This document shows, one piece after another, positions 27,850 to 47,637 of a DNA stretch of 64,000 nt. The translations under genes were made by a program, and so were the position numbers. Below the pieces are notes generated by a model. The model saw nothing but the letters and a program-made list of their open reading frames with translations, did no database searches and was not told the origin of the DNA. Position 1 is the first letter of the stretch, and every line of letters starts with the position of its first letter. The DNA is from Hyphomicrobium denitrificans 1NES1 (lineage in GTDB: Bacteria; Pseudomonadota; Alphaproteobacteria; Rhizobiales; Hyphomicrobiaceae): assembly GCF_000230975.2 (NCBI RefSeq), contig NC_021172.1, positions 1,860,001 through 1,924,000 of the forward strand, read 5' to 3'.

Positions 27850-30800
27850 TCAGATGACGGCGGCACGGGGGACGCCGCGCCCGAAAAGCGTGTTGGTCTG
27901 AAAGACCTTCACCGAAACGGCTGATTGAACACTGCCGAAGTCGGCGATCTGATCGGCGCTCGCATAGACGATGCTCGGTGCCGATGCAGAGATCGTGCGC
28001 CTTACCGCTCCACCGTCGAGGATATCGACTTCGTATGTTTCGCTATCTTCACCGAGCGGCACATCCGGCAGTTCCCAGTTGTCGCCGCCAATCCGCGTTC
28101 GCCTGATCCAGGAAATGTTGAGATCGCCCGATGCGCGTACGCCCTTGACGTGCGCCGGCGACAACGGCCTTCGTCCAAGACCTTGATATGCGAAGGGCGT
28201 CGTCGCGTAAGAGTCGTCGCCAATATTCCGATTGCTGGGACCGTAACGCCAGTTGAGCGGCAGCTTGAGTTCGCTTTCCTGAAGCGGCACGCGCGTCACG
28301 GCGCCGTCGAGCAGAACGAATGGCGCACCTGCCGCGAGGGTATCACTCATCGCGCCTTCGGTGCCGAACTGACCACGCAATAGCCCGCTCAATTCGTAGG
28401 TTTGCGCGTCGACAAGCGTCGCATTCAGGAACTGAACGATCTCCCAATCTCCGTTACCGTTGCGAACGGCCGCCAGATTGGCGCCGCCGAGCATCGTCAC
28501 AAGATCGGCAGACGCCAGCGTGCCGTATGTCAGTCGTATGCGGAGACGCGCGCCATTATCGATCAACCCTTCGGGGCCCGAAGCAAGCGGATCGAGCGTT
28601 ACGCCGAGCGTCGCCGGCGCGCCCGCGAGCGCCTTCAACTGATACCCGGTCGTCTGCGGCGACATATAAAGTGCGACGCTACCGGGCCATGGCTTCTGCA
28701 TTGCAGCCACGTAACCGGACTGCGCATCAGCGGACATCGTCCACGAGGGCAAATCCATGAGCGTGACGGCGGGCGTCCCCACTTGCACCAGCGCCGGTTG
28801 CGGCACCGTCCGCGCCGGCACATCAATCCGGTCATAGACATCGGGATCGACGCTGAGCGCCGCGATCTCGCGCACGCCACGCTCCGTGACGTCCGTCAGG
28901 CGCAGCAATCGGTTGCGTCCCGCGATATCAACGGAAACAACGTCTCCCGGTTCGAGCGCCAGTGCCGAGGGCGGCAACTTGAAGGACGCCCGTTCACGCG
29001 CCGCCCACGTCTCATAAAGCCAGCTTTCGACGAGCGAGCCTGCGAGCCCATCGTCGAGAACGATCGGCAGATCGGCTTCGGCAATGCGACCGCTCGCGCC
29101 CGTCAACCTTCGCGCTTCGGCAACGGCCTGCGGATAAACGTCCGCGCTCGAGATGTATCGCACCTTGGCGGACGCAGGCAGGTCGGTTTCCTGCGCGCGT
29201 GTCACCTCATAAAGCGGATCGTCGGCATGTTCTTCGACAAGGCCGTAGGCCGTCAACGTCATCTGCGGCTCGGCGCGCCCGCGATGGCGAAAGACGATTT
29301 TGCCGCCGCTTTCGATGCTGTCGAAGAAATACGCAAGGCTCAACGGCTGCAAGGCGTCGCGCGCCGACATCGTATCGTCGAGCACGTAGCCGGGCACGGT
29401 TCCGGTCAGTCCCGACGCATCGAACTCCGCGAAGTCATGATCGGTCAGAATCTGGCCGACAAGCTCGCCGAGCGAAGCGCTGCCGAGTCGACCGTTGAGC
29501 CAGTGGCCAAGCGCCCAGTTGCCGCCGTCTCCCCAATATGTCGTCGCATATGGAAATGCCGGATAGGGTCGCGCATCCCAGCAATAGACATGCATGCGGC
29601 CGAGATCGACCATGCGTGCACCGGTGATCTCCGAAACCGGATTGAGGCCCACGACGTAACCACTCTTCGTCCAATCAAATGCATCGCGCAGGACCTGCAG
29701 GAAACGCGCCTGCATGAAATCGTCTCGAATGCCGCGCGAGTAGTAGGGCAGCATCGATTCAGAACTTTTCGGATCGACAAAGACATTCGGCTGGTTGGCG
29801 CCTTTGTCGACGGCGGGGCAGCCGACCTCCATGAACCAGAACGGCTTCGACTGCGGTACCCATGCGGTCGCGGTTGCACTTTCGATGCCGCCGGGCCGAT
29901 TGAAGTGCTCGTTGCTCCACCAGGAGAGAATGTCCTTGTAGCGAAACACCCACGGCTTGCCTCCTCCGTCGGTGATCGGGGTGCGAACCTGTGCGTCGCG
30001 ATCGGCGCCGGACGCATAAAACCAATCGTAGCCCTCGCCGCCCTGGACGTTCGACCGCAAGTACGCCGCATCATAGATCGACATCGCGCCCGCGATGGCA
30101 TCAAGGTGATCGCGTCCATCGCGCCAGTCGGCGAGCGGCCAGTAGATGTCGACGCCGATCGCATCGATATTTTCCGATGCCCAGAGCGGATCGAGATGAA
30201 AATAAACGTCGCCCGATCCGTCAGCCGGCTGATGACCGAAGTATTCCGACCAATCGGCAGCATAGAGAACCTTGGTCGATGCGCCGAGGATGGCTTTGAC
30301 GTCCGCAGCCAGCGCGATCAAGGCGCTGACGAACGGATAAGTGTCGGCACTGGAGCGGACTTGCGTCAGGCCGCGCAATTCCGTGCCGATGACGAAGGTA
30401 TCGACGCCGCCCGCAGCTTTCGCGAGATGCGCATGGTGCAAGACCATGCGCCGGTAGGACCACTCGTCGGGCCCGGAATATTGCACGGTACTTCCCGACA
30501 ACGAGAAGTCCGTCCGCAACGCCGTTCCAACGAAAGACGCGATCTGGCTCGCAGCCGTCGTGGTCTTGTCCGGCGTGCCTGTCTTGCCGGGCGCAGGATG
30601 GCAGGTGATGCGGCCGCGCCAGGGATAGACGGGCTGGCTGCTGCCGCCATAGGGATTGGGCAGACCGTTGCCTTCCGCGACATCCATCAGGATGAACGGC
30701 GTCAGCGTCACGTTGAGCCCGCGCGATTTGAGATCGCCGATAGCGGCGATCACGGTCTGATCGGACGGTGTACCGCCGTAGGCCGCATTGCCGTCGCGCG

Positions 30801-31797
30801 TGCTGATGAGATGTGCGCTGGTTCTATCGCGTCCGGCGACGGACCAATCGAGTGGTGCCGTCGTTTTGTGACGCGTTTCGACGCCCGGCTCGATTCTGCA
30901 ATTTCCGGCGCGCAAGTCCGTCCCGAACCAGCTGACGATCAACGACACCGACTTGGCATTCGGAAGCGATGCCTCGAGCTGGTCGACGGCCACCTGCCAA
31001 TCGGTCGGGCCAATCAGCTGATGGACGTTTTCGGATTGCGAGACGCCATCATCAAACGTCTGATGAACCGGCTCCGTCGCGTAGACGAATTCGCCCGATC
31101 CCGGGATCATCACGACGCCGCGGATATCCTGCTCTACGCTCGAAACACCGCGGAAGACTTCAAACGAGAGCTGCGGCACGCGATTGCCGAACTGAGCAAG
31201 CGGCAGGCGTTCAAAGACGATATACGCGACACCGCGATAGGCTGGTGCATTCCCCACCCCGTCGCGCGCGGCGATGAGGCTATCGGGCTCTTGCGTTTCG
31301 CTGCCGGGATAGAGCCGGAATGACGTGCGCGAGAGATCAAGCTCCTGCTCGTCGGCCCAGATGCGGCCGATACGCGTCACGACGCCCTCGCCGAGCGCCA
31401 CCGCGAAGTTCGCATAATAGCGATACTGCGTCAGCGTCGTGCCGCCGCCCGAACCGCCTTTGCCGCTTCCTGCGGACTCCGTCGTCGTGACGATCTCTTC
31501 TTCGAGGTCGGTCGCCCAGATGATCTGGCCTCCGACGCGCGCCCGGCCATAGATGCGCGGCAGCGGCGAACCCTCGGTCGAGGCGGTAACGCGAAGATCG
31601 CTGAGCCGCGGGCCCTCGACGGCGCGGCCTTGGCCTGAGGCGCCGAACAGCGCCGCATCGACATAGGCGCCCGCCAGCGCGCCGACTTGCGATCCGATCG
31701 TGGCACCGGACAGCGCCACGCCGAGAAAGCCGACACCTGCGGGGAGCATGCTGCTGCCGACCGCAGCTCCGACTGCCGCTAGTGCAAGCGTCGCCAT
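27850..31797 (-). CDS. GTA tail-tip host-contact protein (RcGTA gp15 type)
   Basis: A 1,315-residue tail protein. An N-terminal glycine-rich hydrophobic segment (LALAAVGAAVGSSMLPAGVGFLGVALSG) is followed by the RcGTA gp15 start (LSDLRVTASTEGSPLPRIYGRARVGGQIIWATDLEEE). The middle holds the GTA TIM-barrel glycoside-hydrolase-like region (VLYAADWSEYFGHQPADGSG, IDAIGVDIYWPLADW, PFWFMEVGCPAVDKG), then a phage-tail-3 type domain (PLSLAYFFDSIESGGKIVFRHRG) and a C-terminal receptor-side part. The family sits at the tail tip and cuts or binds the recipient's cell wall polymer. ATG 31797 is chosen because upstream codons come from an intergenic repeat. Confidence 0.92.
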   Translation of the reverse strand: MATLALAAVGAAVGSSMLPAGVGFLGVALSGATIGSQVGALAGAYVDAALFGASGQGRAVEGPRLSDLRVTASTEGSPLPRIYGRARVGGQIIWATDLEEEIVTTTESAGSGKGGSGGGTTLTQYRYYANFAVALGEGVVTRIGRIWADEQELDLSRTSFRLYPGSETQEPDSLIAARDGVGNAPAYRGVAYIVFERLPLAQFGNRVPQLSFEVFRGVSSVEQDIRGVVMIPGSGEFVYATEPVHQTFDDGVSQSENVHQLIGPTDWQVAVDQLEASLPNAKSVSLIVSWFGTDLRAGNCRIEPGVETRHKTTAPLDWSVAGRDRTSAHLISTRDGNAAYGGTPSDQTVIAAIGDLKSRGLNVTLTPFILMDVAEGNGLPNPYGGSSQPVYPWRGRITCHPAPGKTGTPDKTTTAASQIASFVGTALRTDFSLSGSTVQYSGPDEWSYRRMVLHHAHLAKAAGGVDTFVIGTELRGLTQVRSSADTYPFVSALIALAADVKAILGASTKVLYAADWSEYFGHQPADGSGDVYFHLDPLWASENIDAIGVDIYWPLADWRDGRDHLDAIAGAMSIYDAAYLRSNVQGGEGYDWFYASGADRDAQVRTPITDGGGKPWVFRYKDILSWWSNEHFNRPGGIESATATAWVPQSKPFWFMEVGCPAVDKGANQPNVFVDPKSSESMLPYYSRGIRDDFMQARFLQVLRDAFDWTKSGYVVGLNPVSEITGARMVDLGRMHVYCWDARPYPAFPYATTYWGDGGNWALGHWLNGRLGSASLGELVGQILTDHDFAEFDASGLTGTVPGYVLDDTMSARDALQPLSLAYFFDSIESGGKIVFRHRGRAEPQMTLTAYGLVEEHADDPLYEVTRAQETDLPASAKVRYISSADVYPQAVAEARRLTGASGRIAEADLPIVLDDGLAGSLVESWLYETWAARERASFKLPPSALALEPGDVVSVDIAGRNRLLRLTDVTERGVREIAALSVDPDVYDRIDVPARTVPQPALVQVGTPAVTLMDLPSWTMSADAQSGYVAAMQKPWPGSVALYMSPQTTGYQLKALAGAPATLGVTLDPLASGPEGLIDNGARLRIRLTYGTLASADLVTMLGGANLAAVRNGNGDWEIVQFLNATLVDAQTYELSGLLRGQFGTEGAMSDTLAAGAPFVLLDGAVTRVPLQESELKLPLNWRYGPSNRNIGDDSYATTPFAYQGLGRRPLSPAHVKGVRASGDLNISWIRRTRIGGDNWELPDVPLGEDSETYEVDILDGGAVRRTISASAPSIVYASADQIADFGSVQSAVSVKVFQTNTLFGRGVPRAAVI

Positions 31798-31857
31798 GCG
31801 TAAGTCTTTCCAAATTTTATCGCTGATTGTCAGCGGCCCGAAGGCCGAGACTCGCAT

Positions 31858-32036
31858 TCTTCTCCCCTCCCCTCCCCTCGACGGGGAGGGGTCGGGGGTG
31901 GAGTGAAGAGCCGGACGCGATGCCGAGAGCATCCTTTCGCCGAATTCATTCACCAACCGGGCACGCTGCCTATTCCGCAAGATCACTCCCGGATACTTAC
32001 CCCACTCCTAGCCCCTCCCCGCAGGGGAGAGGGGAA
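31858..32036. repeat. C-rich hairpin repeats between g14 and g15
   Basis: Two elements: CTCCCCTCCCCTCCCCTCGA with complement at 31860-31906, and CTAGCCCCTCCCCGCAGGGG at 32006-32033. The second runs into the end of g14, whose last residues (VPLSPAGRG) are read from it. Between them lies about 90 bases with no gene. Confidence 0.7.
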
Positions 32037-36974: not shown

Positions 36975-37140
36975 TGAATTTGACGAAAAAGAAGCTGCTC
37001 GTCGGCGCGACGAGGTGGTTCGCCATATGGCAAACACCCCGCCGCAACCGAAGATTAAGTCTCGACCTCATCAGGAAAAGAAAAAGAAAGCTGGCGCGGA
37101 TCACGCGGCTCATAGGGACCGCGTGGACCGTGAACGTTAG
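36961..37140 (+). CDS. Small charged IS1595 passenger protein
   Basis: A 59-residue protein, MIERDEFDEKEAARRRDEVV at the start, then RHMANTPPQPKIKSRP and a lysine-rich tail. Small proteins of this shape (acidic/basic helix, then NTPP) commonly accompany IS1595-type transposases; that is from memory of the family. It starts inside the end of the AIPR gene (14-base overlap, another frame) and its stop touches the convergent transposase stop. Function unknown. Confidence 0.65.
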   Translation: MIERDEFDEKEAARRRDEVVRHMANTPPQPKIKSRPHQEKKKKAGADHAAHRDRVDRER

Positions 37141-38102: not shown

Positions 38103-38158
38103 ATCTCCTGAGAAACAACATAGCCGCTCAGGTCTGTTCAGTCAAGGTGATAATTCCC

Positions 38159-38166
38159 CTTGCGGA
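38159..38166. repeat. Right target-site duplication of the IS1595-type element
   Basis: CTTGCGGA, identical to 35172-35179, follows the right inverted repeat. Confidence 0.85.
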
Positions 38167-38302
38167 GAGGGGTTAGGGGTGGGGGTAAGGCCCAGCGCAA
38201 TGCGGACTGGAGCGTGGTCGTCACGACGTCACGATTTACGTTTGATCGTCGCCTGGTTCTTCACCCCACCCCTCCCCGTCAAGGGGAGGGGAGAAGTGAG
38301 TA
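38167..38302. repeat. C-rich hairpin repeats downstream of g9
   Basis: The first element (to about 38192) is the right half of the hairpin split by the transposon; its left half is at 35160-35179. A second, CACCCCTCCCCGTCAAGGGG, lies at 38267-38290 near the end of g9. No gene is visible between them. Confidence 0.7.
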
Positions 38303-38327
38303 ACAATGCGTGAGGATGACGAAGGCA

Positions 38328-38744
38328 TCAGGACGCCGCCGTGAACGTCAGCTCGCCGGCGCTTTCGAGTGAGATGTCGAAGGTCACTTCCGCGTCGTGA
38401 CGGCCGCTGAATTCGAGGGCCGTGATCTGGAACGCGCCCTGGATCGTTCCGAAATCCGGAACGATGATTTGCCAGTCGCGGATCGTGCCGTTGAATGCGT
38501 AATCGCGTATGGTCGCATCCGACGCGCCGTCCTTGAACACGCCTGACCCGGTGATGCGCGCTGACTTGACGCCGGCGCCCGTCAAAAGCTCGCGCCACTG
38601 TCCCGCGCTTTCGGTGTTGGTGATCTCGACCGTTTCCGCGCTGATCGAAAGACTGCGTGCGCGCAATCCGGCGACCGTCACGTAGACGCCCGCACCCGTC
38701 GTATCGACCTTCAGAAGAAGGTCCTTACCTTTTTGTGCTGTCAT
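38328..38744 (-). CDS. GTA major tail tube protein (gp9 type)
   Basis: A 138-residue protein starting MTAQKGKDLLLKVDTTG, with LSISAETVEITNTESAGQWRELLTGAGVKSARITGSGVF and EVTFDISLESAGELTFTAA, the phage major tail / TIGR02126 signature. It builds the tail tube. ATG 38744 lies 20 bases from a palindromic element (38764-38809), so its leader is made of repeat sequence. In the canonical order g10 would follow immediately; here the transposon intervenes. Confidence 0.92.
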   Translation of the reverse strand: MTAQKGKDLLLKVDTTGAGVYVTVAGLRARSLSISAETVEITNTESAGQWRELLTGAGVKSARITGSGVFKDGASDATIRDYAFNGTIRDWQIIVPDFGTIQGAFQITALEFSGRHDAEVTFDISLESAGELTFTAAS

Positions 38745-38763
38745 GTTTTGAGGACTCTTTTGT

Positions 38764-38871
38764 TTGTGCCCGGCGACTCCGCTTCGCGGAGCCGGCCGCC
38801 GGTTACGGCCTTCGTGATGCTTTGATGCCTGTTCCCGCAACGCCGCTTCGCGGAGCCGGGCCGGTTACGGG
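38764..38871. repeat. Two palindromic GTA-cluster elements upstream of g9
   Basis: Copy 1 (38764-38809) reads CCCGGCGACTCCGCTTCGCG followed by the complementary GGAGCCGGCCGCCGG. Copy 2 (38833-38871) is a shortened form with CGCCGCTTCGCGGAGCCGG. They belong to the ~42-base palindrome family found in eleven places in this GTA cluster. These two lie between g8 and g9. Confidence 0.8.
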
Positions 38872-38884
38872 CGAGTTGTTTCGT

Positions 38885-39010
38885 TCCCTCTCCCCGTCCT
38901 TACGAGGAGAGGGGTAGAGTGAGGGGCGGCCGCTCATTTCCGTACTTGTTGCAGCCCCTCACCCGCCCTCTCCCCATTCCAAGTGCATCGGAATGGGGAG
39001 AGGGAGCGGT
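38885..39010. repeat. C-rich hairpin repeats between g8 and g9
   Basis: Two elements, CCCTCTCCCCGTCCTTACGA with complement (38886-38928) and CCCTCACCCGCCCTCTCCCC with its complement around a GCATCGG loop (38957-39008). The second ends four bases before the stop of g8. No gene is visible here. Confidence 0.72.
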
Positions 39011-39014
39011 CGCG

Positions 39015-39422
39015 TTATTTCACTTCCGTTACGGCGCGGAAGCGGGCGATGCCGTGAAACGTTTCGCCGTCGTTGTCGCGACGGGCTTCGGAATATTCGT
39101 GCCGAAGATTGATCAACCGGTGGCCGGAGAGCGCCAGATCCTGATCGTGCAACGCGTCGCGCGCCGCCGCGATGACGGCTTCCGCTTCTTTCCTTCCGCG
39201 CGCCCGCGACCAGACGTGCAGCGTCACGAGATGCTCGTAACCTTCGTCTGTTCCGGTCGACCAGTCGCGTTCCGTCGATTGTCCGAACGTTACGAACGGA
39301 AACTCGGCGCGCGCCGGCGCATCGTCGTAGATGCGCGGGCCGCCGAGCGCGGCAAGCGTCGACGCATCGCTCGTAAGTTTCTCGAAAATCGCCTTCTGAA
39401 GCGCAAAGCCTGCACTCGACAT
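39015..39422 (-). CDS. GTA tail terminator, DUF3168 (gp8 type)
   Basis: A 135-residue protein, MSSAGFALQKAIFEKLTSDA at the start, then YDDAPARAEFPFVTFGQS and VTLHVWSRARGRKEAEAVIAAARDALHD, the DUF3168 signature. It caps the tail tube. ATG 39422 shares one base with the stop of the 54-residue gene upstream; a GTG at 39425 is the alternative. Confidence 0.92.
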   Translation of the reverse strand: MSSAGFALQKAIFEKLTSDASTLAALGGPRIYDDAPARAEFPFVTFGQSTERDWSTGTDEGYEHLVTLHVWSRARGRKEAEAVIAAARDALHDQDLALSGHRLINLRHEYSEARRDNDGETFHGIARFRAVTEVK

Positions 39423-39586
39423 CACTTGCCTCGCGTTTGCTGATTACGATTGTCGGCTTGGTTCACGACCTTGGGGCGCTTTTCTGCGTCAGCCTCGCGC
39501 TTGGCGATGGCTTCGCGAATGAGCGCCAAAGCCCGTGTGCGCGATGCTGATGTCGCGATGCCGCCGATACTCACATCCACTTTCAT
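39422..39586 (-). CDS. Small GTA-cluster protein of unknown function, 54 residues
   Basis: A short frame from ATG 39586 to TGA 39422-39424 that exactly fills the space between g7 and g8. The product begins MKVDVSIGGIATSASRTRAL and continues with a charged helix (ALIREAIAKREADAEKRPK) and a polar tail. Its start overlaps the end of g7 by 4 bases and its stop overlaps the g8 start, so it is tightly coupled. RcGTA has no named counterpart at this place that I can recall. Confidence 0.6.
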   Translation of the reverse strand: MKVDVSIGGIATSASRTRALALIREAIAKREADAEKRPKVVNQADNRNQQTRGK

Positions 39587-39915
39587 AAATCACGCTCCTC
39601 CACCGGACACTTCAGCCAGGCTCCGCGATCCTCGACGTCGATAGCGCCAAGAATGTCAAAGATGCGAACACCAAACCGGATGCGCATGTCGGGCTGGACA
39701 TCGGCGCGATAGCGTATCCAGACATCGTGCGTCGCCGTTCCCGCCGTGCGATCCAGCGTAAAATTTTCATCAGCGCTTCGCGACCAGATCGCCGCCCAGA
39801 CTTCGGCAACCGTTTCCCATTCTGTCGTCGATCCGCCCGCACCGTCGCTTGTGCGTTGGGCGCGCTCGATGACGATGCGGTGCCGGAGATCACCGGCTTT
39901 GACTGGTGCCTTCAT
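39583..39915 (-). CDS. GTA head-closure protein (gp7 type)
   Basis: A 110-residue protein of the phage head-tail adaptor/TIGR01563 group: KAGDLRHRIVIERAQRTSDGAGG, then WETVAEVWAAIWSRSADENF and IRYRADVQPDMRIRFGVRIFDILG. It closes the capsid and joins it to the tail. Its ATG overlaps the g6 stop by 4 bases. Confidence 0.92.
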   Translation of the reverse strand: MKAPVKAGDLRHRIVIERAQRTSDGAGGSTTEWETVAEVWAAIWSRSADENFTLDRTAGTATHDVWIRYRADVQPDMRIRFGVRIFDILGAIDVEDRGAWLKCPVEERDL

Positions 39916-40487
39916 AGCCGGATCGTCCGAAACGGGTTGATGAGATCGCTGACAGCATCGGGAATGCGTGCGCCGTCTTTGCCGATTTCCAACGGATCGC
40001 GGCGCTCGTACCAATGCGCAGTCAGCATCAGGATTGCATGTTTCAGCGGCGCCGGAACACTCGACGCGCTGTCGCCAAATCCTGCCATCAGATCGATTTC
40101 GATTCCCTTCGCTGGGAGTCCTGGCGGCGGCGGCGCACTGTTGTTCCAGACCAGCCGTGGCGGCCGCGATGCGAGATCGATGAGATAGCTCTGATCCGAA
40201 ACGGTCGTCGCATTTCCGGACGCATCCTTGACGCGCACGCCGCCGACCGAGCGCAACGGTGCGATCGGCAGATCGATCTCGCGACACTTCGGCCAGCGAT
40301 CGAGCGTCAGCTTCCACGACTGCGTGATGAGGGCCAGCGACAGCGCCGTCTCGATATGCAGCCGCGACGTCAGGATGAGGCTGCCGATCAACACATCCTC
40401 GGCATCGGTGTCGATGCGCATGTGTGCCTTGGCATCGGCGACCGTCACCGGCTCCGCCGCCGGCGGGCTCGTCATCACGAGAGACAT
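39912..40487 (-). CDS. GTA head-tail connector (gp6 type)
   Basis: A 191-residue protein, VTVADAKAHMRIDTDAEDVL near the start and LTAHWYERRDPLEIG near the end, typical of the phage connector / gp6 family. ATG 40487 follows a palindromic element whose conserved tail (GCGCAATCAATAAG) supplies the leader and the GGAACATGCA just before the start, so translation initiation may depend on the repeat. Confidence 0.9.
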   Translation of the reverse strand: MSLVMTSPPAAEPVTVADAKAHMRIDTDAEDVLIGSLILTSRLHIETALSLALITQSWKLTLDRWPKCREIDLPIAPLRSVGGVRVKDASGNATTVSDQSYLIDLASRPPRLVWNNSAPPPPGLPAKGIEIDLMAGFGDSASSVPAPLKHAILMLTAHWYERRDPLEIGKDGARIPDAVSDLINPFRTIRL

Positions 40488-40503
40488 TGCATGTTCCTTA
40501 TTG

Positions 40504-40621
40504 ATTGCGCCTTGCGACTCCGCTTCGCGGAGCCGGCCGCAAGGCGCGGCCTTGTTGCGCGAACGGAGCAACAGCAAGCGCGCCCGGCGGCCGGCTCGCG
40601 GAACGCGAGTCGCCGGGCGCA
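40504..40621. repeat. Two palindromic GTA-cluster elements between g5 and g6
   Basis: Copy 3 (40504-40546) reads GCGCCTTGCGACTCCGCTTC then the complementary arm; copy 4 (40580-40621) reads GCGCCCGGCGGCCGGCTCGC then GGAACGCGAGTCGCCGGGCGC. They lie in opposite orientation 33 bases apart. Confidence 0.82.
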
Positions 40622-40710
40622 AACGAAAATGCGGGGCCACCGCGATGCGATGACCCCGCACGCATTCCGCGCGGGCGGGAGGGAAACCCGCGCGAAAAAT
40701 CGGGATGAAC

Positions 40711-40849
40711 GTCATCCTCGGCCAAGCGCAAGCGAAGGCCGGGGATCCAGCGCAAGACTCGTCGGAGACGCAATATTGTGCCTTCGGCACTCTTGATGCT
40801 GGATCCCCGAACGTCCTCGCAGGCTCGTCCGTTCGAGGATGACGGAACG
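40711..40849. repeat. Long inverted-repeat element, copy A
   Basis: About 139 bases beginning CGTCATCCTCGG and ending CGAGGATGACGG, with a second inner pair (GGGGATCCAGCGCAAG and CTGGATCCCCG) around a centre containing CAATATTG. The whole can fold into one long hairpin just downstream of the capsid gene. Copy B at 45421-45566 has its centre inverted relative to this one. No coding function is visible. Confidence 0.8.
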
Positions 40850-40854
40850 AGGTG

Positions 40855-42096
40855 CTACTCGGCGAATTTCAAGAGTTTGATCGCGTCGAAGTCCTGGACG
40901 CCACCGCCGACGCGCTTCGTGGTATAGAAAAGCACATACGGCTTGGCGCTGTAGGGATCGCGCAGCACGCGAATGCCGGCGCGGTCGACGATCAGGTAGC
41001 CGCGCGAGAAATCGCCGAACGCGATCGAGAACGAACCGCTGCCGATATCCGGCATGTCCTCGCTCTCGGCGACGGGATAGCCCATCAGTGACGGCCACTC
41101 GCCCGGAGCGTTCGCAGGCTGCCAGAGATAATTGCCTTCGCCGTCCTTGAGCTTGCGCACGGCCGCGACGGTCGAGCGGCTCATCATGAAGGTGCCGTTA
41201 GCGCGATAGGGCGCCTTCGCGGCGTAGACGAGGTCGAGCAGCTTGTCGCCCGGCGCCGTCGCGGGGAAGGCGCCGTCAAAGCCCGACGTGACGAAGCCGA
41301 TCTTTCCCCACGCCCACGATGCGTTCGCAACGGTGTCGTAGGCGAGAAAACCTTTCGGCTTGTTCGAGCCGTCGCCCGAGACAAACGCAGTGCCTTCCTG
41401 CTCGGCAAATGCGATCCGCACTTCCTCCGCCAACCACTCGTCGATATTGACGATCGTGTCGTCGAGCAGAGATTGCGATGCGGCGGGCATCGCATAGAGC
41501 TCCATCGTCGGAAACTGCAGGTTGGCGAGCGTCGGCGTCGTCGTTTGCGTGCGCGACGCGGTTTCGGCGACCCATCCCGTGCCGACTCCGGTCGTGGCGA
41601 ATGGCCGGTTATAGACCGAGCCCGACACCTGGCGGATGCCTGAGATCGCGCGCATCGGCGAGATCGCCTTCAAGGCGCGGTTGACGGCAGCTTCCGTCTC
41701 GGCGGGCACGAGATAGCCGCCGTCGGGAGCCGAGCCAGCCGATAATGCTTTCTCCTCGATGCGGGCGAGTCGTGAAGCATCGCCGCGGCGCACGTATCCG
41801 TCGAATGCGGCTTTGTGCGCGAGCTCGGATGTCGGAGACGCGCCGCTTCCGGCAAGGTGCGGACGCGCAGCTTTCAGGGCGATGCTGTCGGAAACACGTT
41901 TCGCCGAGTCGAGCGTCTCCTCGATACGCGCGAGCTTTTCCGCGACGAGTGCGTCGGACGCGCCGCGCTGCTCGATCTCAGTCAAACGCTGGTCGTTCGT
42001 TTCCTTGAAGGCTTCGAAGGCTTCAAGAAATTCTTCGAAGGCGCGCGCGGTTTCCCCGCCCGCCCCCTTCGTTTCGAGGGTGGTCGTGTCGGTCAT
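40855..42096 (-). CDS. GTA major capsid protein (gp5 type, HK97 fold)
   Basis: A 413-residue protein. The N-terminal ~110 residues are a coiled-coil scaffold-like region (EEFLEAFEAFKETNDQRLTEIEQRGA) expected to be removed by the prohead protease. The mature part begins near ALSAGSAPDGGYLVPAETEAAVNRAL and has the HK97 capsid features (GTAFVSGDGSNKPKGFLAY, AFGDFSRGYLIVDRAGIRVLRDPYS). It forms the DNA-containing head. Its 3' end is followed immediately by long inverted-repeat element A. Confidence 0.95.
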   Translation of the reverse strand: MTDTTTLETKGAGGETARAFEEFLEAFEAFKETNDQRLTEIEQRGASDALVAEKLARIEETLDSAKRVSDSIALKAARPHLAGSGASPTSELAHKAAFDGYVRRGDASRLARIEEKALSAGSAPDGGYLVPAETEAAVNRALKAISPMRAISGIRQVSGSVYNRPFATTGVGTGWVAETASRTQTTTPTLANLQFPTMELYAMPAASQSLLDDTIVNIDEWLAEEVRIAFAEQEGTAFVSGDGSNKPKGFLAYDTVANASWAWGKIGFVTSGFDGAFPATAPGDKLLDLVYAAKAPYRANGTFMMSRSTVAAVRKLKDGEGNYLWQPANAPGEWPSLMGYPVAESEDMPDIGSGSFSIAFGDFSRGYLIVDRAGIRVLRDPYSAKPYVLFYTTKRVGGGVQDFDAIKLLKFAE

Positions 42097-42117
42097 GAGT
42101 TGTCCTGTTGGGTTTTG

Positions 42118-42240
42118 AATCCCCTCTCCCCATTACCTGCACTTGAATGGGGAGAGGGCTAGGGTGAGGGGCGGCTGCCTGCTCTATCCGAGATGCAGCC
42201 CCTCACCCCAACCCTCTCCCCGCATGCGGGGAGAGGGAGA
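42118..42240. repeat. C-rich hairpin repeats between g4 and g5
   Basis: Two elements: CCCCTCTCCCCATTACCTGC with complement at 42120-42172, and CCCTCACCCCAACCCTCTCC with GCATGCGGGGAGAGGG at 42198-42239. The second abuts the stop of the prohead protease gene. No gene is visible here. Confidence 0.75.
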
Positions 42241-42945
42241 TTACATTGCCTGCATCAGCCGCGCAGCGTCGCGAAAACGGGAAGCGAGCACGGCATCGTC
42301 GTCAAACGTCCGGCCCGCGTCCCGCAGAGCCTTCAGTCCATGAAAGCCCGAGCGGAGAACCGCTCGCGCTTCCATTCGCGTCAGCCCAGCATCCCGCGTG
42401 AGCCATCGCTCGAATTCACGTTCGGTCGGCGCAGCCATCGCGAACGGCCGCGTCTTCACGCTTTCGACGCGCGCGCCGGGCAGCATCGGAAACGTGACGA
42501 CCGAAATCTCCCAAAGATCGACTTTTTCCAGGCGGCGCACGCCGGTCGCTGCATCGCGCCTGGCTTTCACCGCCTTGAAGCCGATGGATAATCCGTCGAG
42601 CGCACCGGCGCGCATGAGCGCCAGAACTTCGCGCGCTTTCGCAACCGCCGTCATCAACCGCCCGCGCACGTACAGCCCGCGTGCGTCTTCGCGGATCTCG
42701 TCCCAGACGCCGATCGGCTCGGCCGGATCGTGCTGGAACAGCATTTTGATGCGCGCGGCGCCACGACCGAGAAGGCTTTCGCGAAATGCGCCGGGCGCGA
42801 TGATGTCGTGACCCAGGTCCTCGCGATTGAAAAGACTGGCGTAGCCTTCGAACCCGCCGTCGTCGAGCGACTTTGCCTCGAGCGGCAAAGCCCGACTGCG
42901 TTTCGACAACGAAGCGGGCAGCAGGAAGGGTTCGATCGAATGCAT
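42241..42945 (-). CDS. GTA prohead protease (gp4 type)
   Basis: A 234-residue HK97-type prohead protease. FEGYASLFNREDLGHDIIAPGAF and IKMLFQHDPAEPIGVWDEIRED (catalytic His), LDGLSIGFKAVKAR (catalytic Ser) and LWEISVVTFPMLPGARV are the family blocks. It trims the capsid N-terminus during maturation. A GTG at 42951 is an alternative start; ATG 42945 is preferred. Confidence 0.93.
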   Translation of the reverse strand: MHSIEPFLLPASLSKRSRALPLEAKSLDDGGFEGYASLFNREDLGHDIIAPGAFRESLLGRGAARIKMLFQHDPAEPIGVWDEIREDARGLYVRGRLMTAVAKAREVLALMRAGALDGLSIGFKAVKARRDAATGVRRLEKVDLWEISVVTFPMLPGARVESVKTRPFAMAAPTEREFERWLTRDAGLTRMEARAVLRSGFHGLKALRDAGRTFDDDAVLASRFRDAARLMQAM

Positions 42946-43039
42946 CAGCACACCGTCATTTGAGGTTATCGCTTGGATCGTGAATTAGCGCGTGCGAATT
43001 TTCAGGCTTCTGCAGCTGGCAGTGAAGTTTGTGCCTTCA

Positions 43040-43081
43040 TGCGCCCGGCGGCCGGCTCGACGAAGGAGAGTCGCGGGCGCA
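43040..43081. repeat. Palindromic GTA-cluster element between g4 and the immunity-like gene
   Basis: Copy 5, GCGCCCGGCGGCCGGCTCGA followed by GAGAGTCGCGGGCGC. It lies beside the 57-base portal-derived direct repeat, just as copy 6 lies beside the matching repeat inside the portal gene. Confidence 0.75.
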
Positions 43082-43092
43082 ATCATCAGAGC

Positions 43093-43149
43093 GGCGCTTC
43101 CAGAGCGCGTCGCGTTCGGGCGCAAGCGCTTCGATCTGATCGAGATCAG
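43093..43149. repeat. 57-base direct repeat of portal coding sequence, distal copy
   Basis: Matches 44067-44123 at 55 of 57 bases. On the minus strand the portal copy encodes DQIEALAPERDALWKR; this copy is downstream of the immunity-like gene and is not part of an intact gene. The two copies bracket the toxin-like end of the portal gene and the immunity-like gene (about 917 bases between them). The stop codon of the immunity-like frame lies within it. Confidence 0.88.
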
Positions 43150-43543
43150 TCCATCTTCACATATTTCGGAAACTTGGGATCAGGCCGAGCGAACCATGGG
43201 CACTGCCCCACAAGTTCCATCGGATCATCCGGCACCGACTGCCACTCGCGAACAATCGCGTCGGCAATCTCTTCGCGACCGGTGCCATATTGCGCCTGGC
43301 GCGTCCATTCATAGGCCGATCCTGGAATATGTCGTACCGGCACACTGCGCCTGCGTCGAGCAGCGCCAGAATGGCGCGGCGGACGTAGTCGGTTAGCGCA
43401 TTCCCGGAAAGACCGAAATTCGCCCGCCCACCGGGCACGATCTGCCATATCCCAACGGCATCCAGATCAAGCTCGCCCGGATATTGCGATATAACTTCGC
43501 TCAGTGTCTCGCCAGTTCGGCGATGTTTGGGTTCATTGCTCAT
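43146..43543 (-). pseudogene. Frameshifted immunity-like protein gene next to the portal-toxin gene
   Basis: The gene starts at ATG 43543, overlapping the portal stop (ATGA). The first 67 residues (MSNEPKHRRTGETLSEVISQ, LDLDAVGIWQIVPGG, ALTDYVRRAILALLDAGAV) are followed in that frame by a non-conserved run to 43157. In the next frame the expected continuation is intact: VRHIPGSAYEWTRQAQYG, EIADAIVREWQSVPDDPMEL, then CPWFARPDPKFPKYV to the stop at 43146-43148. An extra TG in the GTGTG at 43341-43345 explains the shift. Small acidic proteins of this shape follow toxin tips in many Hyphomicrobiales phage-like portals; the immunity role is inferred. Confidence 0.68.
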
Positions 43544-45273
43544 TTTTGTGTATCTTGTAGCCGTTTTCTATCCACGTTTGATCTGTAGATTTCAGAACGT
43601 CGAGGGTTTCGCCATATTTTTTTGCTTTCCCGAATCCCCAAAAGCGTACCATCAGGCCGTTGGTATGCCTTTCCGTCGTATCCCTTTGGAGCCGGCACTT
43701 CAGTAGCACCGTCCAATAAGTCTGATTTTAATTTCTCGAATTCGCTTCGCTCTAATGTGCGAATATCATCTCCTGCTCTCGCCGCGCGAACTCCTAGTTC
43801 TTTTCCGCCTGGCTTCAACAAATCTTCAAGCGTCTTTTCTGCTGGCTTCAGAACCTTTGGGTTCCGCAACAGGTAGCGAGCGGCGCCCTGGATGATCTTT
43901 GCCATCGCGACGCGGTCGCCATCCGTCCACTGCCCGCCGCCGGATTGGCCTGCAGGGACGCGCGGTTGGTCTTCGCGATATTTGAGAGAGGGGGAACTGT
44001 CCGGCTTCGCGGCATATCCCGCTGCGGCGCGTTTTTCGTCGGCGGTGAGGAAGCTCGCGCCTTCGAGGCGCTTCCAGAGGGCGTCGCGCTCGGGCGCAAG
44101 CGCTTCGATCTGATCGAGATCAGGACGTAACTCGAGTCTTACGTTTGCGCTCGGCGACTCCGCTGCGCGGAGCCGGCCGCCGAGCGCGGGCCTTGTTTCG
44201 AAAGCCGGACCGAGCCAACTCGACAATGCACGCGCGGTGCGGTTCACCAGCGGCAGAACGGTTTGCCGCCAGAAGGCGCGCTGCGCTTCCTGATAATTCG
44301 AATAGGTGTTATCGCCCGGAATGCCGAGCAGCATCGGCGGCACGCCGATCGCGAGCGCGATTTCGCGCGCGGCGGCGTTCTTCGCCTCGATGAAGTCCAT
44401 GTCCTTCGGCGACAGCGACAGCGGCTTCCAGTCGAGGCCGCCTTCGAGCAGCAGCGGACGTCCGGCGGCGCGTGCGCCCTGGAAGTTCGTTTCCAGCTCG
44501 TCTTTCAAGCGTGTGAACTGCTCGTCCGTCATCTGGCCGTTCGACGCGGCATAGACGAGCGCGCCCGAGGGCCGGGCGGAATTGTCGAGCAGTGCCTTGT
44601 TCCATCCCGACGCGGTGTTGTGAATGTCGATCGCGGTCGCCGCCGCTTCGATCGGGCTCATGCCGTAGTGGTCGTTGACGGGATGGAACAAGCGCACGTG
44701 CAGGATCGGGCGCACCCCTTCAACGACGTCGTCGAGGAAGCGCACGGATCGTCCGTAGACGGTGTATTCGTAACCTTCGGGCCAGCCGTCGACGCCCGGG
44801 ATCACCTTCATGCGGTCGGGGCGCAGGATGTGCAGCTCACGCAATTCACCGTCGAGCGCGACGGCTTCGACGTAAGCGTTGCCCGAAACGAGCAGGAAGC
44901 CGTACCAGGCTTCCAGGAAATCGGTCCCCGTGTGATCGAGGCTCGGCCGCCGGATGAGCCCGATCAGCGGATGATCCTCGATCTCGTTCGTACCCTCGTA
45001 GAGGAGCAAGGGGATCGAGGCGGCGGCCTCCGCTATCATGCGCACGCAGCGATAGACGATGGCATTCTGCATGAAGCCTTCGCGCGCGAAGGCGGAATAA
45101 TCGCGCGGCGCCCACACCGGCTCGCCGAGCGTTTGGTAGGCAATGAGCGGACCGGTGGCGGTACCTTTGTTGATTACGCCCGCGCTCGGCGGCCGGGTCG
45201 CGGAACGCGAGTCGCCGAGCGCAACCAAAGAGTCCGGCAGCCAGCGCGATAGCGCCTCCGAGATCAACGACAT
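43540..45273 (-). CDS. GTA portal protein (gp3 type) with C-terminal toxin-like extension
   Basis: A 577-residue protein. Residues about 45-355 are a normal portal (FMQNAIVYRCVRMIAEAAAS, FLEAWYGFLLVSGNAYVEAV, AIGVPPMLLGIPGDNTYSNY). Two palindromic elements are read through in frame: residues ~19-37 (GDSRSATRPPSAGVINK) and ~362-375 (RPALGGRLRAAESPSA). After the usual portal end come PRVPAGQSGGGQWTDG (residues ~435-450), a linker common before toxin tips in this order, and about 130 further residues. The last part is frameshifted at a seven-A run (43617-43623): the +1 frame gives a better ending, RESKKYGETLDVLKST then ENGYKIHKNEQ, stopping at 43533-43535. ATG 45273 has AGGA upstream. Confidence 0.85.
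   Translation of the reverse strand: MSLISEALSRWLPDSLVALGDSRSATRPPSAGVINKGTATGPLIAYQTLGEPVWAPRDYSAFAREGFMQNAIVYRCVRMIAEAAASIPLLLYEGTNEIEDHPLIGLIRRPSLDHTGTDFLEAWYGFLLVSGNAYVEAVALDGELRELHILRPDRMKVIPGVDGWPEGYEYTVYGRSVRFLDDVVEGVRPILHVRLFHPVNDHYGMSPIEAAATAIDIHNTASGWNKALLDNSARPSGALVYAASNGQMTDEQFTRLKDELETNFQGARAAGRPLLLEGGLDWKPLSLSPKDMDFIEAKNAAAREIALAIGVPPMLLGIPGDNTYSNYQEAQRAFWRQTVLPLVNRTARALSSWLGPAFETRPALGGRLRAAESPSANVRLELRPDLDQIEALAPERDALWKRLEGASFLTADEKRAAAGYAAKPDSSPSLKYREDQPRVPAGQSGGGQWTDGDRVAMAKIIQGAARYLLRNPKVLKPAEKTLEDLLKPGGKELGVRAARAGDDIRTLERSEFEKLKSDLLDGATEVPAPKGYDGKAYQRPDGTLLGIRESKKIWRNPRRSEIYRSNVDRKRLQDTQK
44067..44123. repeat. 57-base direct repeat of portal coding sequence, in-gene copy
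   Basis: Partner of 43093-43149 (55 of 57 identical). It encodes the conserved portal segment DLDQIEALAPERDALWKRLE near the original end of the protein. See the distal copy for the arrangement. Confidence 0.88.
44147..44189. repeat. Palindromic GTA-cluster element inside the portal gene (C-terminal side)
   Basis: Copy 6, GCGCTCGGCGACTCCGCTGC then the complementary arm. Read on the minus strand it adds LGGRLRAAESPSAN to the portal without a stop. Confidence 0.88.
45181..45222. repeat. Palindromic GTA-cluster element inside the portal gene (N-terminal side)
   Basis: Copy 7, CGCGCTCGGCGGCCGGGTCG then GGAACGCGAGTCGCCGAGCGC. Read on the minus strand it adds LGDSRSATRPPSAG near residue 20, followed by the shared tail VINK. 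Confidence 0.88.
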
Positions 45274-45299
45274 GAAATGTCCTTTTGAAATTCTGCGCG

Positions 45300-45418
45300 C
45301 ATCCCCTCTCCCCATTGGAGAAATGGGGAAAGGGTTAGGGTGAGGGGCGGCCTCACGAGCGGTGCAAGCTGCTGCTCCTCACCCCGGCCCTCTCCCCGCA
45401 AGCGGGGCGAGGGAAAGG
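45300..45418. repeat. C-rich hairpin repeats between g2 and g3
   Basis: CCCCTCTCCCCATTGGAGAA with complement (45303-45348) and CCTCACCCCGGCCCTCTCCC with its complement around GCAAGC (45377-45416), upstream of the portal gene. No gene is visible here. Confidence 0.75.
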
Positions 45419-45420
45419 AG

Positions 45421-45566
45421 TCGTCATCCTCGAACGTGTGAGCGAAGCGATGCGCGTTCGGGGATCCAGCGCAAGAAGTGCCGAAGGCTCAATATTGTGT
45501 CTTCGACGAGTCTTGCGTCAGATCCCGGCCATCGACGCAACTGCGCTGCACGCGGCCGAGGATGAC
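45421..45566. repeat. Long inverted-repeat element, copy B
   Basis: About 146 bases beginning CGTCATCCTCGAACG and ending GGCCGAGGATGACG, with GGGGATCCAGCGCAAGAAG inside and a centre containing CAATATTG. The centre matches the reverse complement of copy A at 40711-40849. It lies directly downstream of the terminase gene. Confidence 0.8.
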
Positions 45567-45571
45567 GAGCG

Positions 45572-47098
45572 TTAGAGCATTCTCACTGTTGGCTTCATCG
45601 TATCGCTCAGAAGTAGATCGGTAATCGCCCAGACGAGCGCGTCGGCGCGGTCGGGGCTGCGGCCCTTGACCGTTCCATCGCAGCCAAACGCGCACATCTG
45701 GTCTTCGAGAGCATCGAAGCGACCGACGTGCGCGACACGACCTTCCGCATAGAGCGCCGCGACCGGCTCGGCCCGAACCCATTTTCCCCGCGTCGCTCTG
45801 ACTTTGACGACGGGGAAATTCTGTCGAAACTGCTGCAGAACGGAGACGACGAGATCTCCGCCTTGATTGACCTCGGCCACCATGCGGTCGGCCTCGAAAT
45901 CGTCGTAAGCGCCGAGGACCGCGCGCGCCCACACTTCCGGCGTTCGTCCCTGCACGGTGCGATCGGCGAGAACATAGGCGCGCTTGTCGATACCGAGACC
46001 GGCGACAACAATCCCGCACGCATCCGACGACGCCGTCGCCGTCACGGGAGGATCAACCGCGACGACGACGCGCTGCATTTCGGGCGCCCCTTCGACGCGC
46101 GCTTCCTCGATCCAATGCCGCCGCCATAAGCCGTCGCTTGCATCCTCGACGATCTCGCCGAGCAGTTCCTGCCGACCGATTGCCGAACCCGCATAACGCC
46201 GCGTCATCTCGGCGAGGAACGTCGGCGCAAGGTTCAGCGCGTTATCGGCCGTTGCGAGATTGACGGTCACGGTCGCCTCGTCTGCGATGATTTTCTTCAA
46301 CAGCTTCGTCGCGCGCGGTGTGGTCGTCACGCAGGCGCGCGGCGCATCTCCCAAGCGCAAGGCGAATTGCAGCATGTCCCACGCCTTCTCCGCGTTGCGC
46401 CATTTGGCAAGCTCGTCGCACCAGGCGGCGGTGAACTGCGGACCGCGCAACGCTTCGGCTTCGTCCGCCGAGAACAATTCCGCGACCGCGCCGCTCGGCC
46501 ACGTGAGCCGCCGCTTCGACGGTTCGAAGTCCGGGCGCTCGTGCGCGGGATGAACTGCGAGCAATCCCGATTGCCCTTCGATCATGACGTTACGGACGTC
46601 GCCTAGGGTTTTTCCGACAAGTGCGATTCTTATTGGTTGCGCCTTGCGACCCCCCTCCGGGGAGCCGGCCGCAAGGCGCGGGGGTGTTACGCCGGCCGCC
46701 GAGTGCGGCCCTGGGTCTTCGCCACGGGCAATTTCACGGACCCATTCGGCGCCGGCGCGGGTTTTGCCGGAGCCTCGGCCGCCAAGCAGCATCCACACGC
46801 GCCATGCTTTATTGATTGCACCCGGCGACTCCCCTGCGGGGAGCCGGCCGCCGGGTGCGCTCGATGGTGCGCGAGATTCGTCCAACAAGGCCGCGCTCGG
46901 CGGCCGGCTCGCGGAACGCGAGTCGGAAGCTCCAATCAAAGAAGGACAAAGCTGATCGTCCCGCGCCCAGAGCTGCCAATCGTAGGCAATGAACTCAAGC
47001 TCGGCGGCGGAGAGCTCATTCAGAACTTCGCTGAGACGTCCGTTTGCGATTGAGGCGTTCAAGACGTTCCGCAATTTCGCGGCGTAGGTCTTCCGCAT
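45572..47098 (-). CDS. GTA terminase large subunit (gp2 type) with three in-frame palindromic insertions
   Basis: A 508-residue DNA-packaging motor. Walker A is GGRGSGKT at residues 106-113, the ATPase acidic motif lies in FTAAWCDELAKW, and the nuclease acidic residues are near VVVAVDPP and DRADALVWAI. Residues ~51-97 (SDSRSASRPPSAA and GGRLPAGESPGAINK) and ~136-155 (GVTPPRLAAGSPEGGRK) are read from three palindromic elements and have no counterpart in other GTA terminases, which go straight from the WQLWARDDQL block to WRVWMLLGGRG. The start is uncertain: ATG 47098 overlaps g1 by 83 bases and TTG 47062 is an alternative. Confidence 0.9.
   Translation of the reverse strand: MRKTYAAKLRNVLNASIANGRLSEVLNELSAAELEFIAYDWQLWARDDQLCPSLIGASDSRSASRPPSAALLDESRAPSSAPGGRLPAGESPGAINKAWRVWMLLGGRGSGKTRAGAEWVREIARGEDPGPHSAAGVTPPRLAAGSPEGGRKAQPIRIALVGKTLGDVRNVMIEGQSGLLAVHPAHERPDFEPSKRRLTWPSGAVAELFSADEAEALRGPQFTAAWCDELAKWRNAEKAWDMLQFALRLGDAPRACVTTTPRATKLLKKIIADEATVTVNLATADNALNLAPTFLAEMTRRYAGSAIGRQELLGEIVEDASDGLWRRHWIEEARVEGAPEMQRVVVAVDPPVTATASSDACGIVVAGLGIDKRAYVLADRTVQGRTPEVWARAVLGAYDDFEADRMVAEVNQGGDLVVSVLQQFRQNFPVVKVRATRGKWVRAEPVAALYAEGRVAHVGRFDALEDQMCAFGCDGTVKGRSPDRADALVWAITDLLLSDTMKPTVRML
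46639..46680. repeat. Palindromic GTA-cluster element in the terminase gene, copy 8
   Basis: GCGCCTTGCGACCCCCCTCC then GGGGAGCCGGCCGCAAGGCGC. It encodes PRLAAGSPEGGRKAQ on the minus strand. A partial copy (GCCGGCCGCCGAGTGCGG, 46690-46707) follows in the same gene. Confidence 0.85.
46818..46859. repeat. Palindromic GTA-cluster element in the terminase gene, copy 9
   Basis: GCACCCGGCGACTCCCCTGC then GGGGAGCCGGCCGCCGGGTGC. It encodes APGGRLPAGESPGA followed by the shared tail INK. Confidence 0.88.
46891..46929. repeat. Palindromic GTA-cluster element in the terminase gene, copy 10
   Basis: CCGCGCTCGGCGGCCGGCTC then GCGGAACGCGAGTCGG. It is in the opposite orientation to copy 9, 31 bases away, and encodes SDSRSASRPPSAA. 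Confidence 0.85.
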
Positions 47099-47420
47099 GG
47101 GCGAGCGCCTCCTTGCTCTTGGCGTCGCCTCCCGTTGCCTTTCGCTTCGTCATCTCACGTTGCATCTCAACGGCTTTCTCCAATGCATTGACCATCTGCG
47201 ACAGCGCGCGGGACGCACGCTCGCGATCCTGCGAGGTGAGACCCTTCTGCTTTTCGAGCTTTTCGAGTTCGCCGTCGATCGTGTTGTAGACACGTTGTAC
47301 GAGGGATCTTTTTGTTGGCGCTCGGCGACTCGCATTCTGCGAGCCGGCCGCCGAGCGCGTGGTGCTCTTCGTCATGCGGACGCGCGACGTTGCCCGCCGC
47401 GCGCTCGATGCCGCTGCCAT
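47016..47420 (-). CDS. GTA small terminase (gp1 type)
   Basis: A 134-residue basic, helical protein. The C-terminal part (LVQRVYNTIDGELEKLEKQK, ALSQMVNALEKAVEMQREMTKR, ALAHAEDLRREIAERLERLNRK) resembles the gp1 family that acts as small terminase in RcGTA. Residues ~21-37 (TRSAAGSQNASRRAPTKR) are encoded by a palindromic element. ATG 47420 has AAGGTGA upstream; ATG 47375 is an alternative that would keep the element. It is the first gene of the GTA cluster, so the GTA promoter should lie in 47421-47850. Confidence 0.82.
   Translation of the reverse strand: MAAASSARRATSRVRMTKSTTRSAAGSQNASRRAPTKRSLVQRVYNTIDGELEKLEKQKGLTSQDRERASRALSQMVNALEKAVEMQREMTKRKATGGDAKSKEALAHAEDLRREIAERLERLNRKRTSQRSSE
47313..47360. 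repeat. Palindromic GTA-cluster element in g1, copy 11
   Basis: GGCGCTCGGCGACTCGCATT then the complementary arm TGCGAGCCGGCCGCCGAGCGC. It is read in a third frame relative to the copies in terminase and portal, giving RSAAGSQNASRRAP. Confidence 0.85.
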
Positions 47421-47637
47421 ACGCTGCTCACCTTTTCGATTTCTGGAAAACGCAGTTCGGCAAAACGGCCGAAATTTTCAGCGAGAACGTGTCGTCTCAC
47501 ACTTTCCGCGTTATATAGAAATGATGCCTGAGAAGCGTCGCGCTGTCAATCGCAAAAATCGCGTAACGCATTGAAAATTATTACGATTATTGAATTTCTT
47601 CAGACAAACGTCAAAGTATAAATCAGCGCTGAGGGAC

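Follow-up and report, generated by a model that had tools for sequence, protein, structure and literature searches.

The window analysed here is a 64,000-nt stretch of contig NC_021172.1 (positions 1,860,001–1,924,000; window coordinates are used throughout) from the single-contig, 3.81-Mb genome of Hyphomicrobium denitrificans 1NES1. It holds a gene transfer agent (GTA) cluster whose portal gene carries a toxin-like C-terminal tip and is followed by an immunity-like gene. We conclude from the sequences that the two very probably belong to a polymorphic toxin–immunity system whose carrier is the portal protein of RcGTA-type agents. Carrier, junction, tip variety, immunity pairing, tandem spare cassettes and tip exchange can all be read from the compared loci, and the conserved carrier with variable C-terminal toxin domains is the arrangement that characterizes polymorphic toxins. 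Delivery by GTA particles has a little better than even chances in our judgement, and the explanation as a whole (a portal-borne toxin system, particle delivery and a cassette that has decayed in the window) we consider likely. Genomes and loci are denoted below by G and L numbers.

The portal gene (g3 homologue; 43540..45315, minus strand) encodes 591 aa in its native frame. Residues 86–432 match Pfam Phage_portal (E = 4e-88), and the protein aligns with the RcGTA portal (PDB 6tba/6te9; E = 3e-115) and is homologous to Rcc01684; the RcGTA portal has no room for a tip because its chain is only 396 aa long. The portal end and the toxin tip meet at a conserved PRVPAG..GGG.WT junction motif (PRVPAGQSGGGQWT, aa 451–464; 43924..43965, minus strand), in which all nine rows of our alignment (A1) share DQPRVPAG, one G and the W. 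Beyond this junction lie 127 residues, close to the roughly 130 by which an earlier note on this DNA had the portal run past its normal end, and they have no match of their own in Pfam, NCBIfam or PHROGs. G+C content is 64.6% over 43930–45315, compared with 50.0% over 43543–43930 and 58.9% over 43160–43543. By its gene families the surrounding cluster is an RcGTA-type GTA: the megatron, baseplate hub, distal tail, NlpC peptidase and head–tail connector genes all exceed their model cut-offs.

Comparison of portal C-termini in related GTA clusters revealed presence, absence and swapping of the tip. The genus group comprised 22 genomes, the window's own included; 18 had a portal match, which by our reading was a GTA portal in 17 (not in G012). 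Eight of the 17 have an in-frame tip (G000, broken near its end, G007, G008, G013, G014, G016, G017 and G021), three a truncated or out-of-frame tip (G018, G001 and G006) and three none (G002, G009 and G011); in G005 the contig stops at the motif and cuts the gene there, and two portals are themselves cut near aa 340 (G003 and G010). In these last two, from sister species (L046 and L047), no protease or capsid match was found in the 8 kb downstream, and the cut is possibly a shared breakpoint. The extension is not universal: among 14 loci, five (L041, L049, L053, L054 and L055) are in a plain state, the portal ending 1–26 aa beyond the aligned core with a protease match 12–70 bp further on, and the other nine have no in-frame tip and gaps of 175–1561 bp. 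A universal portal extension is thus rejected. Tips occur at 27 of 78 portal loci, a figure that is not a prevalence because loci were ranked by similarity to tipped junctions (80 of 281 portal matches kept). Compared with annotated phages, the portal up to aa 416 is below 60% identity in all 1682 records. In one metagenome contig (L147, 1363–1404), a natural stop codon within the junction motif divides portal from tip.

Within a group of six portals (support 99/97; five of them 93–95% identical to the window core), three unrelated tip types occur, two of each. On a portal-core tree of 18 loci, the tip-type labels need 8 changes, against a mean of 8.4 when shuffled, and tip type appears independent of the portal tree. 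The 18 loci were chosen from 35 fetched regions plus the window, leaving out those with a broken, cut or untyped tip, a cut portal or a distant one. Sister species thus carry different tips, many of them in known toxin families and with co-segregating immunity, which bears out the earlier note's reading of the extension as a toxin tip. The first ten tips gave three matches to RNAse_A_bac, one to CdiA_C, one to WHH with Colicin-DNase and five without a match; a further RNAse_A_bac tip was then found, as were deaminase models under their cut-offs in the tip of L051. In a larger set of 63 tips, Pfam identified 15 as RNAse_A_bac, with single matches to WHH, Colicin-DNase, DUF4951, Colicin_E5, CdiA_C, PDDEXK_1 and Xre_MbcA_ParS_C, and weaker matches to two deaminase models. 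(Dropping tails below 70 aa, the chance-like matches of L107, L115 and L130, and near-identical tails had reduced an initial 63 to 60, and three were added.) All 13 RNase-A-like rows share GH....HV and a C-terminal proline, and a profile of these tips has 5e3e as its sole PDB sequence at E ≤ 0.01 (E = 3.4e-12), which we take to be the CdiA-CT RNase of Yersinia kristensenii (PDB entry title: large exoprotein).

After 68 of 70 tips there follows an open reading frame (ORF) of at least 60 aa, starting −40 to +200 nt from the tip stop, and its type tends to go with that of the tip. Similarity of the immunity proteins goes with similarity of the tips in 111 of 114 pairs, where 5000 shuffles yield 9.3 on average and never more than 27; taken the other way, 111 of 184 tip-similar pairs are also immunity-similar. 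Doubtful motif matches (e.g. L107+6634 and L115+6238) were retained in both the downstream-ORF survey and the shuffle test. These counts point to an immunity gene directly downstream and statistically matched to the toxin type. L050 has a pair of WHH tips, 88% alike, and behind each stands a SUKH-type protein, these partners being 60% alike (one tip was scanned as WHH, 2.9e-15, and one partner as SMI1_KNR4, 3.4e-20, the others being compared with them). Immunity without toxin also occurs, as a 137-aa gene of L034 that resembles the immunity of the L033 tip. With tip-matched immunity families co-segregating, we reject the possibility that the downstream gene encodes a head protein; the cassette proposed in the earlier note therefore survives both this alternative and that of an extension common to all portals.

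Spare cassettes stand behind several portals. Four further portal-end fragments lie between portal and protease in L032 (G007), five lie behind the portal in L050 (no protease match in the fetched region), and L033, L035, L038, L043 and L045 have one or more each. The fragments mostly begin at portal aa 393–406, with a PDLDSIEAL stretch in all six L050 copies, the portal's own among them, and continue via FLT..EKR.A.GY, many also via the junction motif, to a new tip and a next gene; they have the make-up of orphan toxin–immunity cassettes with homology to the carrier end. A second junction motif, NPYHD...GRFT.ADG, replaces the usual one in portal or orphan tips of L035, L038 and L043. The junction motif recurs not only in portals and orphan cassettes but also in small stand-alone carriers with toxin-like tips, which often have about 50 residues ahead of the motif; one of 11 of these matches a Pfam toxin family. 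L228, L232, L236, L239 and others are short stand-alone proteins of this kind, with ∼45–50 aa before the motif, and similar proteins lie within the GTA regions of L061 and L063. A composite of the linker motif matches in 54 of 397 genomes of an order sample. Its recurrence suggests that the linker itself may have a role, possibly as a head-targeting signal or a cleavage site.

The window's own cassette appears to have decayed. Its toxin tip (43543..43923, minus strand) follows the portal frame except in its final part: a profile hidden Markov model (HMM A4) matches with positions 1–48 at 43621–43764 and with positions 43–75 at 43539–43637, and because these matches fall in two frames we regard the toxin as frame-broken, which agrees with the frame correction hinted at earlier. 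The same domain runs in a single frame in L032 (G007), L147 and L149 (G007 and metagenome contigs), and an HMM from five relatives finds the window toxin in four of 398 genomes of a phylum sample, its own genome counted. The ORF at 43157–43543 begins on the portal stop with the ATGA overlap that had been described. The immunity gene is likewise divided between two frames, into an N-terminal piece in this ORF (43343..43540, minus strand; 60% identity to aa 1–67 of the L147 immunity protein) and a C-terminal piece in ORF 43146–43448 (43149..43352, minus strand; 59% identity to aa 66–131); no further copy of the gene was found in the window genome. Sequencing errors in a cassette that is still active, an account compatible with everything proposed here except decay, seem somewhat unlikely. 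As errors would allow, both halves of each protein are still recognizable, and the long frames of portal, terminase, capsid and megatron stay open; the presence of a break in toxin and immunity gene alike, amid open neighbouring frames, speaks against them, as does IMG/VR record L145, which is identical to the window across 2416 compared bases, though probably from the same assembly. We favour decay, with both genes frame-broken and a second cassette of which only a head seems to be left.

That second cassette is marked by a 57-bp direct repeat to which the earlier note had drawn attention. One copy lies within the portal gene (44067..44123, minus strand; the PDLDQIEAL..ALWKR region) and the other downstream (43093..43149, minus strand), 974 bp apart and identical at 55 of 57 positions as reported, a resemblance that is not chance by an estimate made without simulation. 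The immunity stop codon (43146–43148) falls within the downstream copy, which a palindromic element at 43034–43092 immediately abuts, and immunity end, repeat and palindrome together match the opening part of orphan cassette 1 in G007 (79% over 216 nt). Because of this alignment, we interpret the downstream copy as what is left of another cassette, probably the stump of its head. The G007 counterpart is longer; beyond the aligned 216 nt, homology between the two genomes returns, within the stretch compared, at the protease start, and only the palindrome matches in between. The repeat had been attributed to recombination-driven insertion or swapping: swapping is supported by the three tip types on near-identical portals, while the footprint of a single transposition or insertion is rejected, as the copy corresponds to the head of an additional cassette in tandem.

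Relatives of the window pair occur on other carriers. In G456, from another family of the same class, homologues of both proteins (toxin, 33% identity, E = 4e-16; immunity protein, 34%, E = 2e-17) sit behind a frame-interrupted filamentous-haemagglutinin exoprotein (Fil_haemagg_2, 4.8e-41). At the start of that contig there is another pair of this kind (immunity 27%, E = 5e-12), along with a Tox-HNH-EHHH cassette. In G475, an orphan related to the window toxin stands behind a MuF protein. Locus L262 of that genome (3751–5496) has a MuF protein with a C-terminal extension, then a small gene and an orphan tip in which the carrier stretch LLDVFTDDKPSAPAPET recurs, so that the cassettes of this MuF carrier follow the logic of those on the portals. 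A pair common to exoprotein, phage-head and GTA carriers is the expected product of polymorphic toxin exchange.

Polymorphic toxins, phage-head MuF toxins and phage portal–effector fusions are already known, and MuF toxins are the nearest kind. In contact-dependent growth inhibition (CDI; CdiA-CT/CdiI), a conserved carrier bears a swapped C-terminal tip, and orphan cassettes occur. The portal system shares with it the toxin families RNAse_A_bac and CdiA_C, swapped tips, orphan cassettes and, in G456, the window's own toxin–immunity pair on a haemagglutinin-type exoprotein; its carrier, however, is a portal rather than a two-partner secretion exoprotein, and delivery would be by particle rather than contact. 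The window carrier itself is no haemagglutinin-type exoprotein and has only the toxin–immunity pair in common with CDI. Passages on the MuF toxins of temperate phages (PMC3482391; PMC5576092; Bxa, PMC11699363) describe a variable C-terminal toxin on a phage-head protein and an adjacent small immunity gene, the toxin being predicted to be packaged in the head and delivered along with the DNA, all as here, whereas in our case the carrier is the portal itself, in a GTA, and orphan cassettes repeat the portal 3′ end. Rather than a MuF protein, the window carrier matches Phage_portal and, besides, only SHOCT below its cut-off. The phage portal–effector fusions covered in part of PMC9503650 likewise have effector domains on portal or MuF proteins, inferred to be packed and injected, but these are Nudix, 2H and ART domains, and that part of the source describes no immunity genes, tip swapping or GTA. 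RcGTA-type GTAs, from what passages of PMC7296036 contain, share the same structural gene families and the Rcc01684-homologous portal. A literature search by title and start of abstract returned no description of a GTA-portal toxin carrier, which is weak evidence since it covered open-access papers only; passages of three GTA papers (PMC6209664, PMC11841831 and PMC10883770) hold nothing relevant on toxin or immunity.

A tip would be replaced when these repeats recombine with one another or with homologous DNA that enters the cell. The portal crown faces the head interior, and therefore the head could enclose as many as 12 toxin copies alongside the DNA. The C-terminus of the RcGTA portal ends in this crown, according to a passage of PMC7296036. 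The toxin would be freed, perhaps at the linker by the neighbouring prohead protease, and ejected into the DNA-receiving cell, which would survive if it had matching immunity and be inhibited if not. More tentatively, GTA particles of Hyphomicrobiales may be kin-discriminating weapons, their toxin entering with the DNA and stopping recipients that lack matching immunity at the GTA locus.

The same genes could instead be selfish passengers or addiction modules, with toxin and immunity acting in the producer and punishing loss of the GTA locus or the immunity gene, without particle delivery. Cassettes that are compact, tandem and frequently decayed would suit this, as would pairs that co-segregate as in toxin–antitoxin loci. 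We think it rather unlikely, given that the protein to which a conserved linker joins the toxins is a late structural one, that the window toxin family is also found as an orphan behind MuF (G475) and on an exoprotein (G456), and that several tip families are secreted-toxin families (CdiA-CT). Still less probable are packed effectors that benefit the recipient or the DNA entering it, for instance as anti-defence factors, the next gene then encoding a modulator rather than immunity against non-kin. Nudix, 2H and ART fusions to MuF, portal or head proteins of phages are so interpreted in a passage of PMC9503650; the domains recognized in our tips are those of RNases, DNases and CdiA-type toxins, a SUKH-type partner accompanies some of them, and the variety and swapping of tips suit conflict between strains. 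That the extension elaborates the portal structure, or is junk produced by misassembly and read-through, is very improbable and is rejected for the family, in which unrelated recognizable toxin domains sit at a shared junction in many genomes, with paired immunity families and a nonsynonymous-to-synonymous rate ratio (dN/dS) of 0.06–0.14 in seven of eight toxin or immunity pairs, although the window extension is frame-broken near its end and this decayed copy might yet be of that sort.

Several points weigh against a particle-delivered portal toxin. A toxin on a fixed portal requires release before ejection, and cleavage at the linker is putative. The window strain's GTA may be inactive or interrupted because an IS1595-family transposase gene (37137–38102) lies in its tail region, between the major tail protein and tape measure genes. 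Many cassettes are broken or lost, as the eight in-frame tips among 17 genus-group portals attest. Since at least 39 of the 63 tips match no Pfam family, their toxicity is by association. The downstream proteins are dissimilar in 73 of the 184 tip-similar pairs, and the co-segregation count, uncorrected for kinship, is inflated by related genomes. Synonymous divergence (dS) in the seven pairs with low dN/dS is 1.0–2.3, close to or past saturation; the eighth, near-identical pair gives a dN/dS of 0.5. The toxin-family and structure searches suggested in the earlier note returned nothing for the window tip: it has no Pfam match, and the fold predicted from a five-row alignment of window-type toxins (mean predicted local distance difference test score, pLDDT, 64.6; blocks 31–70 at 78–86) has no significant PDB match. 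We give no weight to the CDI complex 5t86, which ranked third in that fold search (E = 0.38, probability 0.41), and a single-sequence model of the L147 tip (pLDDT 39.9) was useless. PDB sequence searches with the window-type toxin gave nothing convincing (designed repeat proteins at E = 7e-4, with no single stretch passing; otherwise E = 0.49 at best), and PADLOC matched none of four proteins.

If the weapon reading is true, cells that lose the GTA cluster would be punished, gene exchange would be restricted to kin, and the upkeep of costly GTAs would be partly explained. A passage of PMC6209664 reports models in which the cost of producer lysis exceeds the benefits of exchange, making GTA maintenance puzzling. 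A particle toxin with its immunity in the GTA locus would favour carriers directly over GTA-less cells, which makes the puzzle testable, and the portal of domesticated particles would join the known carriers of polymorphic toxins.

The other GTA genes of the window also lie on the minus strand: the large terminase (g2 homologue; 45572..47098; Terminase_6N and Terminase_6C), the prohead protease (g4 homologue; 42241..42951; Peptidase_S78, 2.1e-34, and TIGR01543), the major capsid protein (g5 homologue; 40855..42096; Phage_capsid, 3.2e-86) and the megatron, an RcGTA-type marker (g15 homologue; 27850..31986; NF048004 GTA_megatron at 1848 bits, cut-off 800). From terminase to megatron the cluster also matches TIGR02215, TIGR02217, TIGR02218 and TIGR02219; the RcGTA_tape match, at 173 bits, is under its cut-off of 220, and ORF 39018–39425, one of ten cluster ORFs scanned, has no family match. 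The megatron gene is ∼10–19 kb from the portal on the same contig in G000, G007, G008, G014, G016, G017, G021 and G023, all with an in-frame tip, and likewise in G006, whose tip is out of frame; coordinates in L072, L085, L098 and L118 are consistent with the same distance, their contig numbers being unmatched to accessions. A 93-bp repeat, 80% identical (42146–42238 and 45322–45414), occupies both intergenic gaps bordering the portal–protease segment.

The palindromic element beside the downstream 57-bp copy (43034..43092, minus strand; covariance model R1, 55.8 bits) has a counterpart within the portal gene, 11 bp from the upstream copy (44135..44194, plus strand; 75.3 bits); both are among the model's own rows. 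Rfam returned only microRNA matches under their gathering scores on 38000–47600, and no family reached its gathering score at the palindrome. The element is ∼60 bp long, and several copies lie inside GTA genes (terminase, portal and head–tail connector). A pattern search had made it seem nearly confined to the GTA cluster, a view dropped once the covariance model showed it to be dispersed and dense at the cluster: there are 10 strong copies (at least 55 bits) within 38754–47365 (8.6 kb) and at least 57 matches genome-wide at E of 0.1 or better, a lower bound since 150 of 1672 candidates were scored. The GTA loci of 13 relatives (141 kb) hold 94 matches.

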